Part shown: positions 27,828 through 34,032 of the stretch, in pieces | Layout: every line of letters begins with the position of its first letter | How positions within the stretch are numbered: position 1 is the first letter of the stretch | Assembly: GCA_009885845.1 (NCBI GenBank) | Contig: VFJW01000161.1 | Span: 1-34,032 of the forward strand | Reading direction: 5' to 3' | DNA from: Geobacter sp. | Lineage (GTDB): Bacteria > Desulfobacterota > Desulfuromonadia > Geobacterales > Pseudopelobacteraceae | DNA: 34,032 nucleotides | Translations under genes and position numbers: made by a program | The notes under the pieces: model-generated | Seen by the model: the letters and a program-made list of their open reading frames with translations, nothing else | Database searches by the model: none | Told to the model about the DNA's origin: nothing

Positions 27828-27897
27828 TAATGAATTTGCTCTTTTCTGCCGTGGTGTGATAACGTTAAAAGACGTAATTCTGATAAAGGATATTGTA

Positions 27898-28419
27898 ATG
27901 GTTCTGGGGTACAATCACAATCTGAAATACAAAGGTGAAGTGTTTCACGTCCAGACTGAGGATAGTGGCGTCGCCAACCCGCACATTATAACCCTGCTAT
28001 ATCGAGGCGGGGTTATAATCAGCTCCAAAAAAACCAGTTATTCTGACATCCTGAAGATGGAAAATCTGGAAGTTGTTGTGGAAGAGTTGATGAAAGAGCA
28101 GCATAAAGAGATGATGCGCCGCCTTAAAGCGGGTGATTTTGACGAAAAAGCATTTTCGTTTAAAGCCCAGTTGATTGAAAATTATGAAATTCCTCTGCTG
28201 GCTCCGGAAGCAGATCCGATGGCAGAAATATTCAGGTCTGCTTCTTCCCCTGCCCCTGCGTCAAAAGGTGGTGTTTCCCTGCTGTTTGATTTGCCGCTGC
28301 AGTCCGAAAAAAAAGATACTGCTCCTCAGGCAAATAATAATACACCGCCTGATTCTGACAGCAAAGTGATAAACCTTGATGAAGCGATTCTTTCTTTTTT
28401 CGGCCCCAGTGAAAAATAA
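27898..28419 (+). CDS. Conserved hypothetical protein, deltaproteobacterial type
   Basis: This 173-residue soluble protein of unknown function has an N-terminal block (VLGYNHNLKYKGEVFHVQTEDSGVANPHIITLLYRGGVIISSKKTSYSDI, residues 2-52) that I recall as a conserved motif of uncharacterised deltaproteobacterial proteins, including myxobacteria. A charged helix (VVEELMKEQHKEMMRRLKAGDFDEKAF) and a Pro/Ala/Ser/Asn-rich disordered tail follow, with a short acidic C-terminal peptide (VINLDEAILSFFGPSEK) that could be a docking motif. I chose the ATG at 27898 because AAAGGA precedes it; the frame opens further up without support. It lies between the GerMN gene and a sensor kinase. Confidence 0.75.
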   Translation: MVLGYNHNLKYKGEVFHVQTEDSGVANPHIITLLYRGGVIISSKKTSYSDILKMENLEVVVEELMKEQHKEMMRRLKAGDFDEKAFSFKAQLIENYEIPLLAPEADPMAEIFRSASSPAPASKGGVSLLFDLPLQSEKKDTAPQANNNTPPDSDSKVINLDEAILSFFGPSEK

Positions 28420-28463: not shown

Positions 28464-29957
28464 ATGTTCCATAGTCTCACGACACGCGTTATTGCAACTA
28501 CCATTTCGCTCCTTGTCGCGGGGATATTTATCTATACCTCGTTCAATGTCCGTCATCAGCATACCATGCTGATTGATACGGCCCGCGAAAGTACTGAACT
28601 GCTGCTGCATACCGTGGAAAGCAGTATTTATAACACCATGCATCTCGGCAATGTTCAGGATGTCGGCTCAATTCTGTCGATGGTCGGTCAGCATAATCAA
28701 CTGGTAGGAGTACGAATATTTCATCCTCACGGAATTATTCTGCGCTCATCGATTCCGAGTGAAGTCGGCAGGTCTGTCAGCGTTAATGATTACAATATCT
28801 ATCAGAGTCCAAAGAACTTCAGTATCTTTGCCGTTCCACCGCATGGTGAAGTTCTGGCGATGGTTAAGCCGATCTATAACGAGGCGGCCTGTCATGCCTG
28901 CCATGGCAGCAAAGCGCGGGTTATCGGGATTCTTAATATCAACTACTCGCTTAACAGCACAAAAATGCAGATGCTTGATGCCTCCCGGATCTTTGTCATT
29001 TCATCCATAGCGATAACTGCTTTTTTGGCTATTACGATCTCATTTCTGCTCGTGCGGTTTGTCAAAAAACCGCTTGATAACATGGTGGATACGATGCTGA
29101 AAGTTGAACAGGGAGACTTTGCCGTCCGTATTGCCTACAAAGGTAAAGATGAGATTGGTCGCCTGATAGTTAGTTTTAATTCTATGGTTGATAGACTTTA
29201 TGTCGCGAAAAATGAGTTGGAGCAGCTGCACTTTCAACAGCTTGAACGTGCAGACCGCCTGGCTTCAATCGGTGAAATGGCGGCAGGCATCGCCCACGAA
29301 ATCAAAAATCCCCTGGCCGGCATATCGGCCGCGGTGACGATTATTAAAGATGAAATGACGCCGGATGACCCGCGCGGAGCGATTCTTGGTGAAGTTGTCG
29401 ATCAGGTAAAGCGGCTGGACAAAACCGTCAATGACCTTCTTTTCTTTGGGAAACCGTCGTTGCCGGAGCTGAGATGTGTTGATATTAATTCGATTCTGCT
29501 TACGACACTCAAGTTTGCTACACAGCATCGCGGCGGAGGAAATATTGAACGGCGAATTGATCTGCAGCCCGATCTTCCGCCGGTATATGCCGACGACAAG
29601 CAGATTCAGCAGGTTTTTCTGAATATCATCCTGAATGCGTATCAGGCGATGACATCAGGCGGTGTTCTGGGCATTGCATCGTCATGCATTGTCCGTAACA
29701 ATGTTGAGTATGTACGGGTAGATATTTCCGATACCGGATCAGGCATTCCTTCCCAGATACTTGAAAAAATATTCACCCCCTTTTACACAACAAAAGCACA
29801 AGGAACCGGTTTGGGACTGCCGATCTGCAGTAAGCTTGTAAAACTTCACAAGGGTGACATCCGGGTATCCAGCAGTGATACGTCAGGCACGACCTTTACG
29901 GTAGAACTGCCTGCATGCTTCATTGAACCAACAAAAGTGAGTGAGGTAACAGTATGA
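28464..29957 (+). CDS. Sensor histidine kinase with a periplasmic c-type heme motif
   Basis: This 497-residue membrane kinase has helices at about 8-27 and 177-198 that enclose a periplasmic sensor of about 150 residues. Near the sensor's end is CHACH (residues 143-147, in NEAACHACHGSKARVIGILNINYSL), a CxxCH heme c attachment site, so it probably senses redox state or a heme ligand. A HAMP domain (about 199-250), a phosphoacceptor H278 in GEMAAGIAHEIKNPLAGISAA, and the ATPase domain with NIILNAYQAM, DTGSGIP and GTGLGLPI follow. All kinase motifs are intact. Its stop overlaps the start of the NtrC-type regulator (ATGA), which is almost surely its partner. The ribosome site before 28464 is weak. 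Confidence 0.93.
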   Translation: MFHSLTTRVIATTISLLVAGIFIYTSFNVRHQHTMLIDTARESTELLLHTVESSIYNTMHLGNVQDVGSILSMVGQHNQLVGVRIFHPHGIILRSSIPSEVGRSVSVNDYNIYQSPKNFSIFAVPPHGEVLAMVKPIYNEAACHACHGSKARVIGILNINYSLNSTKMQMLDASRIFVISSIAITAFLAITISFLLVRFVKKPLDNMVDTMLKVEQGDFAVRIAYKGKDEIGRLIVSFNSMVDRLYVAKNELEQLHFQQLERADRLASIGEMAAGIAHEIKNPLAGISAAVTIIKDEMTPDDPRGAILGEVVDQVKRLDKTVNDLLFFGKPSLPELRCVDINSILLTTLKFATQHRGGGNIERRIDLQPDLPPVYADDKQIQQVFLNIILNAYQAMTSGGVLGIASSCIVRNNVEYVRVDISDTGSGIPSQILEKIFTPFYTTKAQGTGLGLPICSKLVKLHKGDIRVSSSDTSGTTFTVELPACFIEPTKVSEVTV

Positions 29958-31327
29958 AACGAAGTAAAATATTAGTAGTAGACGACGAACATCTCATCCG
30001 CTGGTCACTTGAACAGAATCTGAAAAAGCAGGGCTATGAAGTTGTCACGGCGGGAAGCGGAGAAGATGCGTTACGCCTTGTTCGTGAGGAACAGCCTGAT
30101 CTGGTTCTGCTTGATATTCAATTGCCTGGCATCAGCGGTATAGATGTCCTTGAGAAAATTAAAGATCATGACGATGATATTATCGTCATCATGGTTACCG
30201 CTAACAGCGGTCTCGAAAATGCGGTTAACGCCATGCGGATCGGTGCGTATGACTATGTCAGCAAGCCGTTCAATCTTGATGAGCTATCGATTGTCGTCAG
30301 AAAAGCACTGGACAGCTCAGATCTCAAGCAGGAAGTCGTCCGGCTGCGCTCAGAATCAAAAAAGAACGGTCCACCCAATATTATTGGTGAGAGCCGTCAG
30401 ATCAAATACCTGATGGAGGTGCTTGATAAAGTCGCGCGCAGTGAGGCGTCAACGGTTCTTGTGCAGGGTGAATCCGGTACCGGTAAGGAACTGGTGGCAA
30501 AATGGATACATTACAGCTCAAACCGTGCTGAAAAACCGTTCATTGCGATTAACTGTGCCGCTGTTCCCGCCACCTTGCTGGAAAGCGAGCTGTTTGGCCA
30601 TGAAAAGGGGGCCTTCACCGACGCCAAGGCAAGCAAAAAAGGTTTGTTTGAATTAGCTGATGGCGGGACGGTTTTTCTTGATGAAATCGGTGATATGGAG
30701 ATGGGGATGCAGGCCAAATTGCTGCGCTTCCTCGAAGATCGAACCTTCCGCCGCATCGGCGGAGGCCGTGTTTTCACGGTGGATGTCAGAATAATATCGG
30801 CAACGAACAAAGATCTGCAAAAATCGATTGAAGAAAAATCATTCCGTAATGACCTCTATTACCGCTTGCAGGTAATCCCGATTTTTCTACCGTCACTCCG
30901 TGAGCGCAAAGAAGATATTATCCCGCTTGCAACTCATTTTATCAGCATCTTCAACAGGGACTTCAATAAGAAGGTTCATGGGATCGCCGGCATGGCTGAG
31001 CGGATGATGACCGACTACAGCTGGCCCGGAAATGTTCGTGAGCTGAAAAATGTCATCGAACGGGCCATTATTCTCGGCAATGACGAGACGCTTCTCCTGG
31101 AACATCTGCCGCTGGAAATAATTGCCAAGGCATCGCCACAGACCTGTGCTCCCGTATCATCTTTTCGTCTTCCGCCAGAAGGTATTGATATCGAGGAAGT
31201 TGAAAAAGAGCTCATCAGGCAGGCTCTCGAAATTACCGAATGGAACCAGTCAAAGGCTGCGAAGAAATTGAGTTTGGGGATTGATGCTTTCCGCTATCGG
31301 ATGAAGAAATTTGGTTATTTGAAATAA
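29954..31327 (+). CDS. NtrC-family sigma-54-dependent response regulator
   Basis: This 457-residue protein activates sigma-54 promoters when phosphorylated. The receiver domain (1-120) has D10/D11, phosphoacceptor D54 (LVLLDIQLPG) and K104. The AAA+ domain has Walker A GESGTGKE (172-179), Walker B TVFLDEIGDM and FRNDLYYRL. The sigma-54 contact loop is GAFTDA (219-224, 30608-30625) instead of the usual GAFTGA. The C-terminal Fis-type helix-turn-helix is NQSKAAKKLSLGIDAFRYRMKKFGYLK. It is translationally coupled to the upstream kinase. A consensus sigma-54 promoter lies 19 bases after its stop and is a likely target. Confidence 0.95.
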   Translation: MKRSKILVVDDEHLIRWSLEQNLKKQGYEVVTAGSGEDALRLVREEQPDLVLLDIQLPGISGIDVLEKIKDHDDDIIVIMVTANSGLENAVNAMRIGAYDYVSKPFNLDELSIVVRKALDSSDLKQEVVRLRSESKKNGPPNIIGESRQIKYLMEVLDKVARSEASTVLVQGESGTGKELVAKWIHYSSNRAEKPFIAINCAAVPATLLESELFGHEKGAFTDAKASKKGLFELADGGTVFLDEIGDMEMGMQAKLLRFLEDRTFRRIGGGRVFTVDVRIISATNKDLQKSIEEKSFRNDLYYRLQVIPIFLPSLRERKEDIIPLATHFISIFNRDFNKKVHGIAGMAERMMTDYSWPGNVRELKNVIERAIILGNDETLLLEHLPLEIIAKASPQTCAPVSSFRLPPEGIDIEEVEKELIRQALEITEWNQSKAAKKLSLGIDAFRYRMKKFGYLK

Positions 31328-31346
31328 GGAGCTATAGATTCATTCT

Positions 31347-31361
31347 TGGCACTTTTTTTGC
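31347..31361 (+). promoter_or_regulatory. Consensus sigma-54 (-24/-12) promoter
   Basis: TGGCAC at 31347-31352 and TTGC at 31358-31361 are separated by exactly five bases (TTTTT), with T on both sides. This is a full match to the TGGCAC-N5-TTGC consensus. Transcription would start about 12 bases after the GC, near 31372, leaving a leader of about 73 bases before the ATG at 31446. The upstream neighbour encodes a sigma-54 activator, so local control is likely. Confidence 0.82.
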
Positions 31362-31445
31362 TCATATGTTAGGTGTAATTTGTGTTCAGTGTGCATATAA
31401 CTACTGAAATAATACCTAAAACTCCACAATAACGGAGGCATAGAG

Positions 31446-34032
31446 ATGTTAGTGCGAACAAGAAAATTGTTAGTGTTGGGTGCCGTGCTGCTGATCGCAG
31501 TGGTCATTTCACAGCCAGTGGCCTCATATTCCGCTACATCACCGACAGTCACCGTGCTGAGCCCCTTGTCTCAGGGGCTTAGAGCGCCGGTAAAAATTGC
31601 TCTTGACGCAAGTGGCAACATGTATGTTGCCGATGGAAGAGCTGGCGGAGTTGTTGTTTTTGATGCATATGGAAAGCCGCTGATGAAGATTCGTACAGCC
31701 GCTGTTCCGAACGCCTTGGCCTTTGCCCAGGATGGGTCGCTGCTTGTCGCGCAATCGAATTTTGTTGCCCGTTATAATGCTGCAACCGGTGAGGAAGTGG
31801 GGCGTCTGACTGGCGGAAATCTTCGGTCTGCATCCGGTATAGCGGTAAACAGCGGGAGCGGATATCTGTATGTTGCCGACAGTAGTGCCAAGCAGATTGA
31901 GGTTTACACGGCATCAGGCCAGTATGTCACTGCGTTTGGAAATGGTGTTCTCTCGACTCCGACAGGAGTCACCTTTGAAAAAATATCAGGTCAGTTGGCT
32001 GTGGCCGATACCTACAACAACAAAATTCAGTTTTTTGACGTAAACGGCAACTACACGTTCGTCAGGAGCATTGGAAATCCGATCCCCTCCAATACTGCAA
32101 CAGTATCGGCGTTGCAGTTTTCTGCTCCGGTGGCGGTCGCATTTGAATACAGCCCCGGCCAGACACCTCTGCTTGCAAGAATATATGTGCTTGACGCATA
32201 CCAGGGAAATGTTCAGGTGATCGACCCGGCAACCTTAACCGCAATCAACGTGGCAGGTGCCGCAACTAATTACATCGGCACATCCGGAACGTTATTGGTT
32301 CCGTCTGATGCCATATTTGATGCTACAAACCGACGTCTGCTGGTTGTAAACGGCTTCGGGTATGTGACTATCTATGGCATCGACGGCGGCAAGAATCCTG
32401 TCTACGTTGATGTGACGGCACCCGTCTTCACCGTTAATCAGCTGCCTGAAGAAGTAACAGTAAATGCTTTGACAATCAGCGGCACAGTGGAAGCCGGATC
32501 AACAGTACAGATTTCTACCGGTTCGGCAGTCGTCGGCTCTGTTACGTATACCGGTTCTTCCTGGAGTGCGGGCATTACCGCTCTTGCCGCTGGCGTCAAC
32601 AACTTTAACGTCACGGCAAAAGATGTCGCCGGTAACATCGCGGCACCGCAGAGCGTTTCGGTAGCCTATCTGCTCCCCGCCCCGGTACTTACAGTCGCAG
32701 CGATTTCATCCATTATCAAATCACCCGTAATTACCATTTCAGGTGCTGTTGATGCCGGTTCTGTGGTTGTTGTTACCAACCTGACGACCGCAGTCGTCGG
32801 GAATGCCACAGTTACCGGAAGTGCGTGGAGTTTTGATGCTGCTCTGGGTGAAGGATCCAACAATCTGAAAGTTTCTGCGCAAAAACCGCAAAGTGCAGTA
32901 GCAAATCTAACAGTAGCAATCACGTTGGATACGGTTGCTCCTGCCCTTTCTGTGTCCGCCCTTCCTAACGGAAGCAATGCCGGTGACCCGATTCAGAATA
33001 TTTCGGGAACCGTTGTTGATACCAGCAGTACTTCTCTTACGGTTAACGGTACTGCTGCCGTGTTGAATGGCAACGCGTTCAGTGTTCCGGTTACGCTCCT
33101 GAATGGCCCGAATAACATTTCAGTAGTTGCAATGGATGCAGCCGGTAATACAACCGTCAATAACCGGACACTTAATTATTATGCCGGATCCGGTCTGGCC
33201 GTATCAACTCCGGTTGATAACTCAATTACCGCATCGGCAACAGCCGAAATAAGTGGTACGGTTGCCGGGTCTTTAACCGTTGCGGTTTCCGGAGTGCCTG
33301 TTACAATACAGGACAATACGTGGAGTACCTCTGTTGAGCTCACCGCCGGAACCAATACAATTGAAATAATTGCAACCGATGCTGTTGGTAACAGCTCTTC
33401 GGTAAAACGCACCATAACGCTTGACACCATCAAGCCGGCGCTGGCTGTTACATCGCCGACTCAGGACGTTGCCATTAATGTACCTAATGTCCTGATATCC
33501 GGCACCGTGTCTGACACAACCTCACTTTCACTTGAATATTCAGTTAACGGTTCAGCAGCAGCGGTGCCCGTTAGCGGCGGCATTTACTCATTCAACGTTG
33601 ACTTTGCTGCCGAAGGTAATTATCCGGTAACTATTACGGCAAAAGATGCCGCTGGTAATAGTTCGACCGTTGTACGTAACGTTATATATGATATCACTCC
33701 GCCGACATTTTCGCTTAATACGGTAACCGGTGTCATGCCGGAAAAACTGAGTGGAACTGTTGAGGCCGGTTCGTCTGTGGTAGTTAAAGACGGCACGTCA
33801 CCAGTCGGTACGGTGTCTGTTACAAACGGCGCATGGACAGCTAATCTTGCTGGTGTAACATATACCCCGGGTAATCTTCTGGTTGTAGCGACTGATGCAG
33901 CCGGCAACAGTACATCAAAGAGCCTGACCTACAGTTTCCCGGACGGGACACTCAATGCCGGTGGTCAGCCGACTGTTCAGGATGCTCTCCGTGCCATTCG
34001 TCTGGTTGTAAATCAGGTGACGCCATCAGCCC
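31446..34032 (+). CDS. Large secreted propeller/Ig-repeat protein with dockerin-like C-terminal part (3' truncated by window)
   Basis: At least 862 codons are open to the window edge. The ATG at 31446 has GGAGG 7 bases upstream. A signal peptide (about 1-29, KLLVLGAVLLIAVVISQPVASYSA) precedes NHL-type propeller repeats (about 40-315: LRAPVKIALDASGNMYVADG, ASGIAVNSGSGYLYVADSSAKQIEVY, LAVADTYNNKIQFF). About six bacterial Ig-like repeats follow (about 325-825), several with the pattern SGTVEAGS...NGxxW...NNxxVTAKDAAGN. From about residue 831, PDGTLNAGGQPTVQDALRAIRLVVNQ resembles the dockerin-like segment seen at the ends of such proteins in Geobacter-type genomes. It is probably a cell-surface or extracellular binding protein. 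It is expected to be transcribed from the sigma-54 promoter just upstream. Confidence 0.88.
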   Translation, partial: MLVRTRKLLVLGAVLLIAVVISQPVASYSATSPTVTVLSPLSQGLRAPVKIALDASGNMYVADGRAGGVVVFDAYGKPLMKIRTAAVPNALAFAQDGSLLVAQSNFVARYNAATGEEVGRLTGGNLRSASGIAVNSGSGYLYVADSSAKQIEVYTASGQYVTAFGNGVLSTPTGVTFEKISGQLAVADTYNNKIQFFDVNGNYTFVRSIGNPIPSNTATVSALQFSAPVAVAFEYSPGQTPLLARIYVLDAYQGNVQVIDPATLTAINVAGAATNYIGTSGTLLVPSDAIFDATNRRLLVVNGFGYVTIYGIDGGKNPVYVDVTAPVFTVNQLPEEVTVNALTISGTVEAGSTVQISTGSAVVGSVTYTGSSWSAGITALAAGVNNFNVTAKDVAGNIAAPQSVSVAYLLPAPVLTVAAISSIIKSPVITISGAVDAGSVVVVTNLTTAVVGNATVTGSAWSFDAALGEGSNNLKVSAQKPQSAVANLTVAITLDTVAPALSVSALPNGSNAGDPIQNISGTVVDTSSTSLTVNGTAAVLNGNAFSVPVTLLNGPNNISVVAMDAAGNTTVNNRTLNYYAGSGLAVSTPVDNSITASATAEISGTVAGSLTVAVSGVPVTIQDNTWSTSVELTAGTNTIEIIATDAVGNSSSVKRTITLDTIKPALAVTSPTQDVAINVPNVLISGTVSDTTSLSLEYSVNGSAAAVPVSGGIYSFNVDFAAEGNYPVTITAKDAAGNSSTVVRNVIYDITPPTFSLNTVTGVMPEKLSGTVEAGSSVVVKDGTSPVGTVSVTNGAWTANLAGVTYTPGNLLVVATDAAGNSTSKSLTYSFPDGTLNAGGQPTVQDALRAIRLVVNQVTPSA

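Follow-up and report, generated by a model that had tools for sequence, protein, structure and literature searches.

A conserved heme c attachment motif in the Cache sensor domain of a Geobacter histidine kinase and its predicted link to a multiheme cytochrome operon

The window analyzed here, that is, the whole stretch of 34,032 nucleotides from a Geobacter sp. contig, encodes a histidine kinase of 497 amino acids with an ATG start (28464–29957, + strand). The open reading frame, the Pfam matches, and the hydrophobic stretches located by eye (residues ~9–29, N-terminal, and ~176–197, running into the HAMP domain) give the following layout, from the N to the C terminus: a first transmembrane segment, a putative heme-c single Cache (sCache) sensor, a second transmembrane segment, HAMP (195–245), HisKA (270–330), and HATPase_c (377–484). 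The periplasmic sensor domain, assigned from its PF21563 score, from profile matches to the structures 3b42 and 3b47, and from an AF2 model, comprises residues 30–170 (28551–28973, +). It contains the motif C143-H-A-C146-H147 (28890–28904, +), which the initial annotation had taken for a heme c attachment site and whose five codons translate as claimed; His147 would be the proximal ligand. With the first membrane stretch before it and HAMP behind it, the motif falls in the periplasm, the compartment of heme c attachment; both the hydrophobic stretches and the position of the Pfam HAMP match agree with the earlier placement between two membrane segments. The predicted distal axial ligand is Met59 (28638–28640, +), on account of its invariance and its alignment with Met60 of GSU0935, as discussed below.

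The kinase gene is followed by that of a response regulator (29954–31327, +), in which the open reading frame and Pfam matches reveal a receiver domain, a sigma-54 AAA+ domain, and a Fis-type helix–turn–helix. The first 4 bases of the regulator gene are also the last 4 of the kinase gene, and the two genes may well be co-transcribed. The pair has the NtrC-type layout, i.e., a HisKA/HATPase kinase with an adjoining receiver-AAA+-Fis regulator, and a homologue of the regulator adjoins the kinase in all 31 of the loci whose neighborhoods were inspected (L004–L020 and L212–L225).

Upstream of the kinase are found murI (named by eye), a gene for a GerMN protein, and a gene for a RomY_N protein (27856–28419, +; NCBIfam NF053858, 134 bits against a cut-off of 50). 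RomY is present in 25 of the 31 neighborhoods, and most of the other six do not extend far enough to include its gene. In the relatives, the surroundings of RomY and the kinase contain variable genes, all named by eye: a methionine-synthase-like gene of 806 amino acids, transketolase halves, and a pseudopilin-like gene. The RomY_N protein probably does not belong to the sensing unit; its position directly upstream of the kinase, and its retention nearby in relatives, touch on the question of a link to polarity control.

A predicted sigma-54 promoter, TGGCACTTTTTTTGCT (31347–31362, +), begins 20 bases past the last base of the regulator gene, its first base lying 99 bases before the start codon of the next gene. 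It matches 11 of the 11 scored consensus positions, with GG at −24 and GC at −12, and its score was equalled in none of 500 shuffles of the 450 bases that follow the regulator. The element is the only exact match to TGGC-N7-TTGCW in the window, where the same pattern with one mismatch occurs 19 times, as chance predicts, and it agrees in 15 of 17 letters with the published RpoN consensus of G. sulfurreducens, TTGGCACGGTTTTTGCT (PMC2725144). Upstream of the promoter, no shared enhancer-like inverted repeat was found.

The gene behind the promoter (31446–34031, +) encodes an NHL/Ig-repeat protein with Pfam matches to Glucodextran_B, Big_13, Big_6, and NHL, of which 862 amino acids are seen before the contig end cuts the frame. 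The protein is probably secreted, judging by eye from its N-terminus, and its gene is the predicted target of the kinase/regulator pair. The ribosome-binding site of this gene is covered by an inverted repeat, CTCC-N8-GGAGG (31422–31438, +). The pattern has two other matches in the genome, compared with three for a reversed control pattern, and a search of positions 31320–31520 returned no Rfam match. We regard the repeat as a candidate translational control hairpin.

By its profile matches and its modeled fold, the sensor belongs, as a single Cache domain, to the known GSU0582/GSU0935 family (PF21563, Mcp40H-20_sensor). The Pfam match covers residues 53–163 and is borderline: the isolated domain scores 30.1 bits, the genome scan gave 28.1 bits, and the full-length kinase reaches 26.5 bits, just under the cut-off of 27. 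Two traits of the family, a CXXCH near the C-terminal end of the domain and an axial Met in the N-terminal helix, are both present. A profile built from 21 diverse members (A3) has as its top matches 3b42 (GSU0935, E 1.3e-8) and 3b47 (GSU0582, E 8.5e-6), followed at E 4e-4 or worse by cytochromes, one unrelated enzyme, and Tll0287 (E 0.3). The single sequence gives weak matches to the same two structures (E 0.031 and 0.44, respectively). Assignment to the Tll0287-like family (PF11845, DUF3365) was considered as well and rejected, the domain reaching 17.3 bits against a cut-off of 24.1.

The statements about the fold are based on the AF2 model of residues 30–169, the sole good one of five (pLDDT 75.5 and pTM 0.67; the other four have pLDDT 44.6–48.3). 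It consists of two N-terminal helices and five strands, with a short helix carrying the CXXCH between the last two strands. A Foldseek search with this model places the Cache sensors WalK, GSU0935, CitA, KinD, and GSU0582 among the matches with E < 0.001 (best E 2.4e-6), with 3b42 at E 5.1e-6 and 3b47 at E 3.4e-4, both at high rmsd and both from domain-swapped crystals. The structural aligner VIA-align superimposes the model on the WalK sensor with Z 15.8 and an rmsd of 2.5 over 127 aligned residues; the domain-swapped 3b42 and 3b47 are absent among the 50 matches that it listed. An earlier AF2 model that included the transmembrane helices was poor (pLDDT 60.2), and weak searches with it put GSU0935 or WalK first. 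The modeled fold agrees with a recent preprint, the available text of which moves heme domains of this type from PAS to Cache (PMC12889525).

The conservation of the motif was examined with a profile of residues 30–134 from 15 orthologues (A1), so that the motif itself was left out of the query. Run against 141 order genomes and 395 phylum genomes, the profile matched in 105 and 94 of them, respectively, and 197 loci were taken in (194 distinct after removal of 3 duplicates). The set comprises 92 strong order matches (E 5e-28 or better, in kinase-sized frames), 104 of the 112 phylum matches (6 of them shared), 5 order paralogues, the remaining ones staying outside the set, and 2 refetched copies. 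A CXXCH occurs somewhere in the sensor domain of 190 of the 194 distinct sequences, the four domains without it being short tail matches (L284, L285, L287, and L290) with E 9e-5 to 2e-4. These 190 domains divide into 124 with one CXXCH and no CX3-4CH, 56 with CXXCH and CX4CH, 8 with two CXXCH, and 2 with CXXCH and CX3CH. At the site occupied by the motif in the window, there are 128 CXXCH, 56 CX4CH, 2 CX3CH, and 2 CX5CH, while 2 sequences are cut off before it; with the weak tail matches excluded, a C-x(2-5)-CH heme motif is thus present in all 188 sequences that reach the site.

Both cysteines and the histidine are kept as CXXCH in all 92 strong order matches. Fifteen different XX pairs occur among them, which shows that the intervening residues drift while C, C, and H stay. 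As a baseline, CXXCH was sought in the same reading frame of 62 kinases matched via the kinase domain, a few of whose frames end at contig ends, and was found in none. A chance origin of CHACH is excluded because of this conservation, seen in matches to a profile blind to the motif and set against none in the baseline. The alignment of homologues that the initial annotation had proposed as a check therefore came out in favor of the motif, and common loss of the cysteines, which it had named as grounds for abandoning the idea, is not what the homologues examined display.

Four of the 92 strong order matches (L275–L278), from genomes of the same genus, are divergent relatives of the kinase (98–116 bits) that keep the CXXCH and the Met in a different neighborhood, with the regulator missing beside them. 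We also observed a sister branch of 60 loci with two heme motifs per sensor domain, namely, a mid-domain CXXCH and, at the window's site, a longer motif that is usually CX4CHxH (the 56 CX4CH, 2 CX3CH, and 2 CX5CH among the 190); examples are L149, L154, L155, L158, L163, L190, L209, L230, L231, L279, and L291. In this branch the alignment puts the second His of CHxH on the H147 column, the figure for which was left unused and the motifs counted instead. Additional motifs have already been reported for Gsu0591, Gsu0599, Adeh_2011, and Adeh_3383 in the portion of PMC3831638 available to us, and the word CXXXXCH is absent from the text of the heme-Cache preprint (PMC12889525).

For the axial ligand, the 190 sequences left after dropping the four tail matches were aligned. 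Met59 is invariant in the 189 rows that have a letter at this position, the remaining row being cut off; the only equally strict columns are G90 and S95, each kept in 190 of 190. A gapless alignment of the helix to 3b42, taken from the profile match, puts Met59 on chain position 26, which corresponds to Met60 because the CXXCH is at chain positions 106–110 and the published residues are Cys140, Cys143, and His144. According to the accessible part of a review (PMC8396549), Met60 of GSU0935 coordinates one heme of the pair present in the crystal dimer and probably binds the reduced heme; CO or NO displaces it, and oxidation makes it dissociate, giving what is proposed to be the active state. Since Met59 aligns with this residue, a His147/Met59-ligated heme c is predicted for the sensor domain of the kinase.

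As a heme-attachment site in the sensor domain of the kinase, the motif is well supported by the sequence comparisons, and the source genome encodes cytochrome c maturation proteins of the ResB and Cytochrom_C_asm families, so that heme attachment is possible. This part of the initial annotation stands, given the conservation described above. Its further suggestion, that few two-component kinases carry covalent heme and that the pattern points to a dedicated sensor family, is not supported as regards rarity or an undescribed family, as relatives are already described (PMC8396549, PMC12889525). The sensor family is neither new nor rare: the sections of PMC8396549 at hand review the heme-c periplasmic sensors GSU0582 and GSU0935 (3b47 and 3b42), GSU0303, and DcrA, and those of PMC12889525 give the heme-Cache family more than 5,000 InterPro members, histidine kinases included, 99% of them with CXXCH. 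A literature search lying mostly outside the subscription journals showed no paper on the kinase/regulator pair among the entries listed, and the probable output of the pair was likewise not found in print.

The output was surveyed in 20 related loci of 11.5–14.5 kb. Homologues of the NHL/Ig gene and of a giant cytochrome follow the regulator in 14 of them, with 23 to 50 CXXCH seen in the giant cytochromes. Eight of these 14 operon loci also carry a homologous protein of 260–308 amino acids with four CXXCH; that of L293, the only one examined, matches PDB 7tfs, which we take to be the OmcE filament, with E 4.8e-26. A sigma-54 site with 9 to 11 of the 11 consensus positions follows the regulator in all 14 operon loci, where 450 bases were scanned (700 for L303). 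The distance from the first base of the site to the NHL start is 79–110 bases in 13 of these loci; in L297, the exception, the 4-heme gene precedes the NHL gene. Weak NHL matches were obtained in L307 (E 8e-13) and L308 (E 1e-10), and the NHL gene of L303 was found by tblastn, having been missed by ORF calling. The six loci without the operon (L298–L302 and L309) contain the pair, and no site within the 450 bases scanned in them scores above 8.

The closer relatives behave in the same manner. The NHL gene and a site of 9 to 11 are found in L012, L016, L020, and the window, while nine others (L004, L006–L011, L018, and L019) keep the pair, have no NHL match, and have a site of at most 8. The stretch available for L014 is too short for it to be placed in either group, and in L222 the site is past the 450-base stretch, 99 bases before the NHL match. 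Taken alone, the sigma-54 score is weak in L296, L297, L304, L305, L307, and L310 (6 of the 14) and in L020, with shuffle fractions of 0.056–0.114, and these matches count mainly by their position. The inverted repeat over the NHL ribosome-binding site, as CTCC-N8/9-GGAGG with a mostly A-rich loop, recurs in 10 of the 14 operon loci (L292–L296, L304–L306, L310, and L311) and in L012, in addition to the window. It is mainly because the site and the operon come and go together behind the regulator gene that we name the operon as the target.

The rest of the operon is not seen in the source strain, because the NHL gene runs off the contig and the genome offers no close match to the OmcE-like 4-heme partner (best 33% identity, on contig C109). 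Elsewhere in the genome, a second NHL protein and giant multiheme cytochromes are encoded together on contig C157 (1648–10775; L322, L328, and L329); on the strand of this cluster, the stretch examined before it contains no sigma-54 site scoring at least 9. Two further probable heme-c sensors with CXXCH were observed, one on contig C92 (36809–37408, L002), in a frame of 720 amino acids whose C-terminal half looks by eye like GAF and HD-GYP, and the other on contig C147 (1347–1829, L086), in a frame of 677 amino acids that passes the Tll0287 cut-off with 79.5 bits and contains PAS- and kinase-like regions by eye.

We propose that the pair constitutes a His/Met heme-c redox sensor controlling the cytochrome operon, a reading that we consider reasonably probable. 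One covalent heme c would be held in the periplasmic single Cache domain, with Cys143 and Cys146 fixing the porphyrin, His147 as the proximal iron ligand, and Met59 from the N-terminal helix as the distal ligand of the reduced heme. Met59 would be released upon oxidation or by a gas such as NO, and this would shift the helix through the membrane into HAMP and change the kinase activity. The kinase would in turn phosphorylate the overlapping sigma-54 response regulator, which in its phosphorylated form would bind at and activate the promoter at 31347–31362. The promoter is expected to drive the NHL/Ig gene and, in complete operons, also the OmcE-like tetraheme and giant multiheme cytochromes. 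The availability of extracellular electron-transfer proteins would thereby depend on the periplasmic redox state.

NO sensing is a serious rival, because the sole signaling-type member tested in PMC12889525, a membrane-bound heme-Cache protein of P. azotoformans, binds NO tightly, with a slow off-rate, and forms no stable O2 complex, according to the text available to us. On this account the sensor would be chiefly an NO sensor, with Met59 displaced upon NO binding to the ferrous heme and a nitrosative-stress or respiration response under the control of the pair; the preprint takes the signaling heme-Cache members as NO sensors, and reduced GSU0582 and GSU0935 bind NO and CO reversibly, as stated in the accessible part of PMC8396549. 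However, the P. azotoformans protein was inferred to have water as the sixth ligand (PMC12889525), while the branch of the kinase has an invariant Met, and the conserved operon next to the pair encodes multiheme cytochromes. The words methionine and Met60 are absent from the preprint text (PMC12889525), and because of the water ligand and this silence on Met its conclusion need not extend to the Met branch. We judge NO as the principal signal to be rather unlikely, if worth retaining beside the redox reading.

It is also conceivable, at a similarly low level of probability, that the pair senses through heme c but has its main targets elsewhere, the adjoining promoter answering another enhancer-binding protein. 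The pair is kept in genomes lacking the operon, where the regulator must therefore have other targets, and RomY and the pseudopilin-like gene (by eye) are recurrent neighbors too. Against this stands the joint gain and loss of site and operon directly behind the regulator gene, and the local targets of sigma-54 activators often lie directly behind the activator gene. That the CXXCH is a disulfide site, a metal site, or a relic without heme is very improbable: CXXC motifs have other uses, but here the His is conserved together with both cysteines, in contrast to a freely varying XX, Met59 is co-conserved, relatives have a crystallized heme c (3b42 and 3b47; PMC8396549), and the same genome has cytochrome c maturation genes.

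Returning to the redox reading, we tentatively extend it, with a confidence somewhat short of even, to a redox feedback loop operating across Desulfuromonadia, of which the pair would be the regulatory half. The oxidation state of the periplasm would be read by a His/Met heme-c Cache kinase, which via its dedicated sigma-54 regulator would switch a cell-surface operon composed of an NHL/Ig scaffold, an OmcE-like filament-type cytochrome, and cytochromes with 23 to 50 hemes, the conserved hairpin at the ribosome-binding site serving as a second layer of control.

The characterized heme-c periplasmic sensors are chemoreceptors or isolated proteins in the literature consulted. Here the sensor, the regulator, the promoter, and the candidate targets lie in one conserved stretch, which makes the output of the kinase addressable by knock-out and expression experiments in culturable relatives, one with the operon being Pelotalea chapellei (locus L017); the G. 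sulfurreducens orthologues of the pair may be GSU2915 and GSU2916. If the proposal is true, the pair is a candidate regulator for multiheme cytochrome operons. The locus also bears on whether the NO-sensor reading of signaling heme-Cache domains holds for the branch with the invariant Met, and what it adds to the known family is this Met together with a conserved, testable output.

Among known systems, GSU0582 and GSU0935 (3b47 and 3b42) resemble the kinase sensor in profile family, fold, CXXCH position, and axial Met position, but their output is a chemotaxis signaling domain, whereas here a histidine kinase and a sigma-54 response regulator take its place. Their potentials are −156 and −251 mV, respectively (PMC8396549). 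The sCache_heme/DUF3365/Tll0287-like domains (PF11845), in the account available from PMC12889525, share the single Cache fold with a CXXCH helix between two strands; they differ in the ligand, Tll0287 having a Cys and the NO-binding member a proposed water, in contrast to the invariant Met of the kinase branch. The wider family of that preprint takes in GSU0582 and GSU0935, although the kinase misses the PF11845 cut-off. A likewise paired kinase and sigma-54 regulator, GSU2507/GSU2506, is found by an extracellular cytochrome locus in G. sulfurreducens, near omcS (GSU2504), the adjacency being taken from the locus numbers (PMC10599522, PMC11077965, PMC3495685). We rejected GSU2507 as the same protein, since it has 621 amino acids and a Cache_1-HAMP annotation, with no heme site mentioned in the accessible parts of these sources, compared with 497 amino acids for the kinase here. 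Finally, MsmS (MA4561) of Methanosarcina acetivorans is a kinase-type sensor that PMC8396549 lists among those containing c-type heme and presents as a heme-based redox sensor; according to the part of this review at hand, it is a predicted PHY-like, photoreceptor-type multidomain protein, and its sensor architecture thus differs from that of the present kinase.
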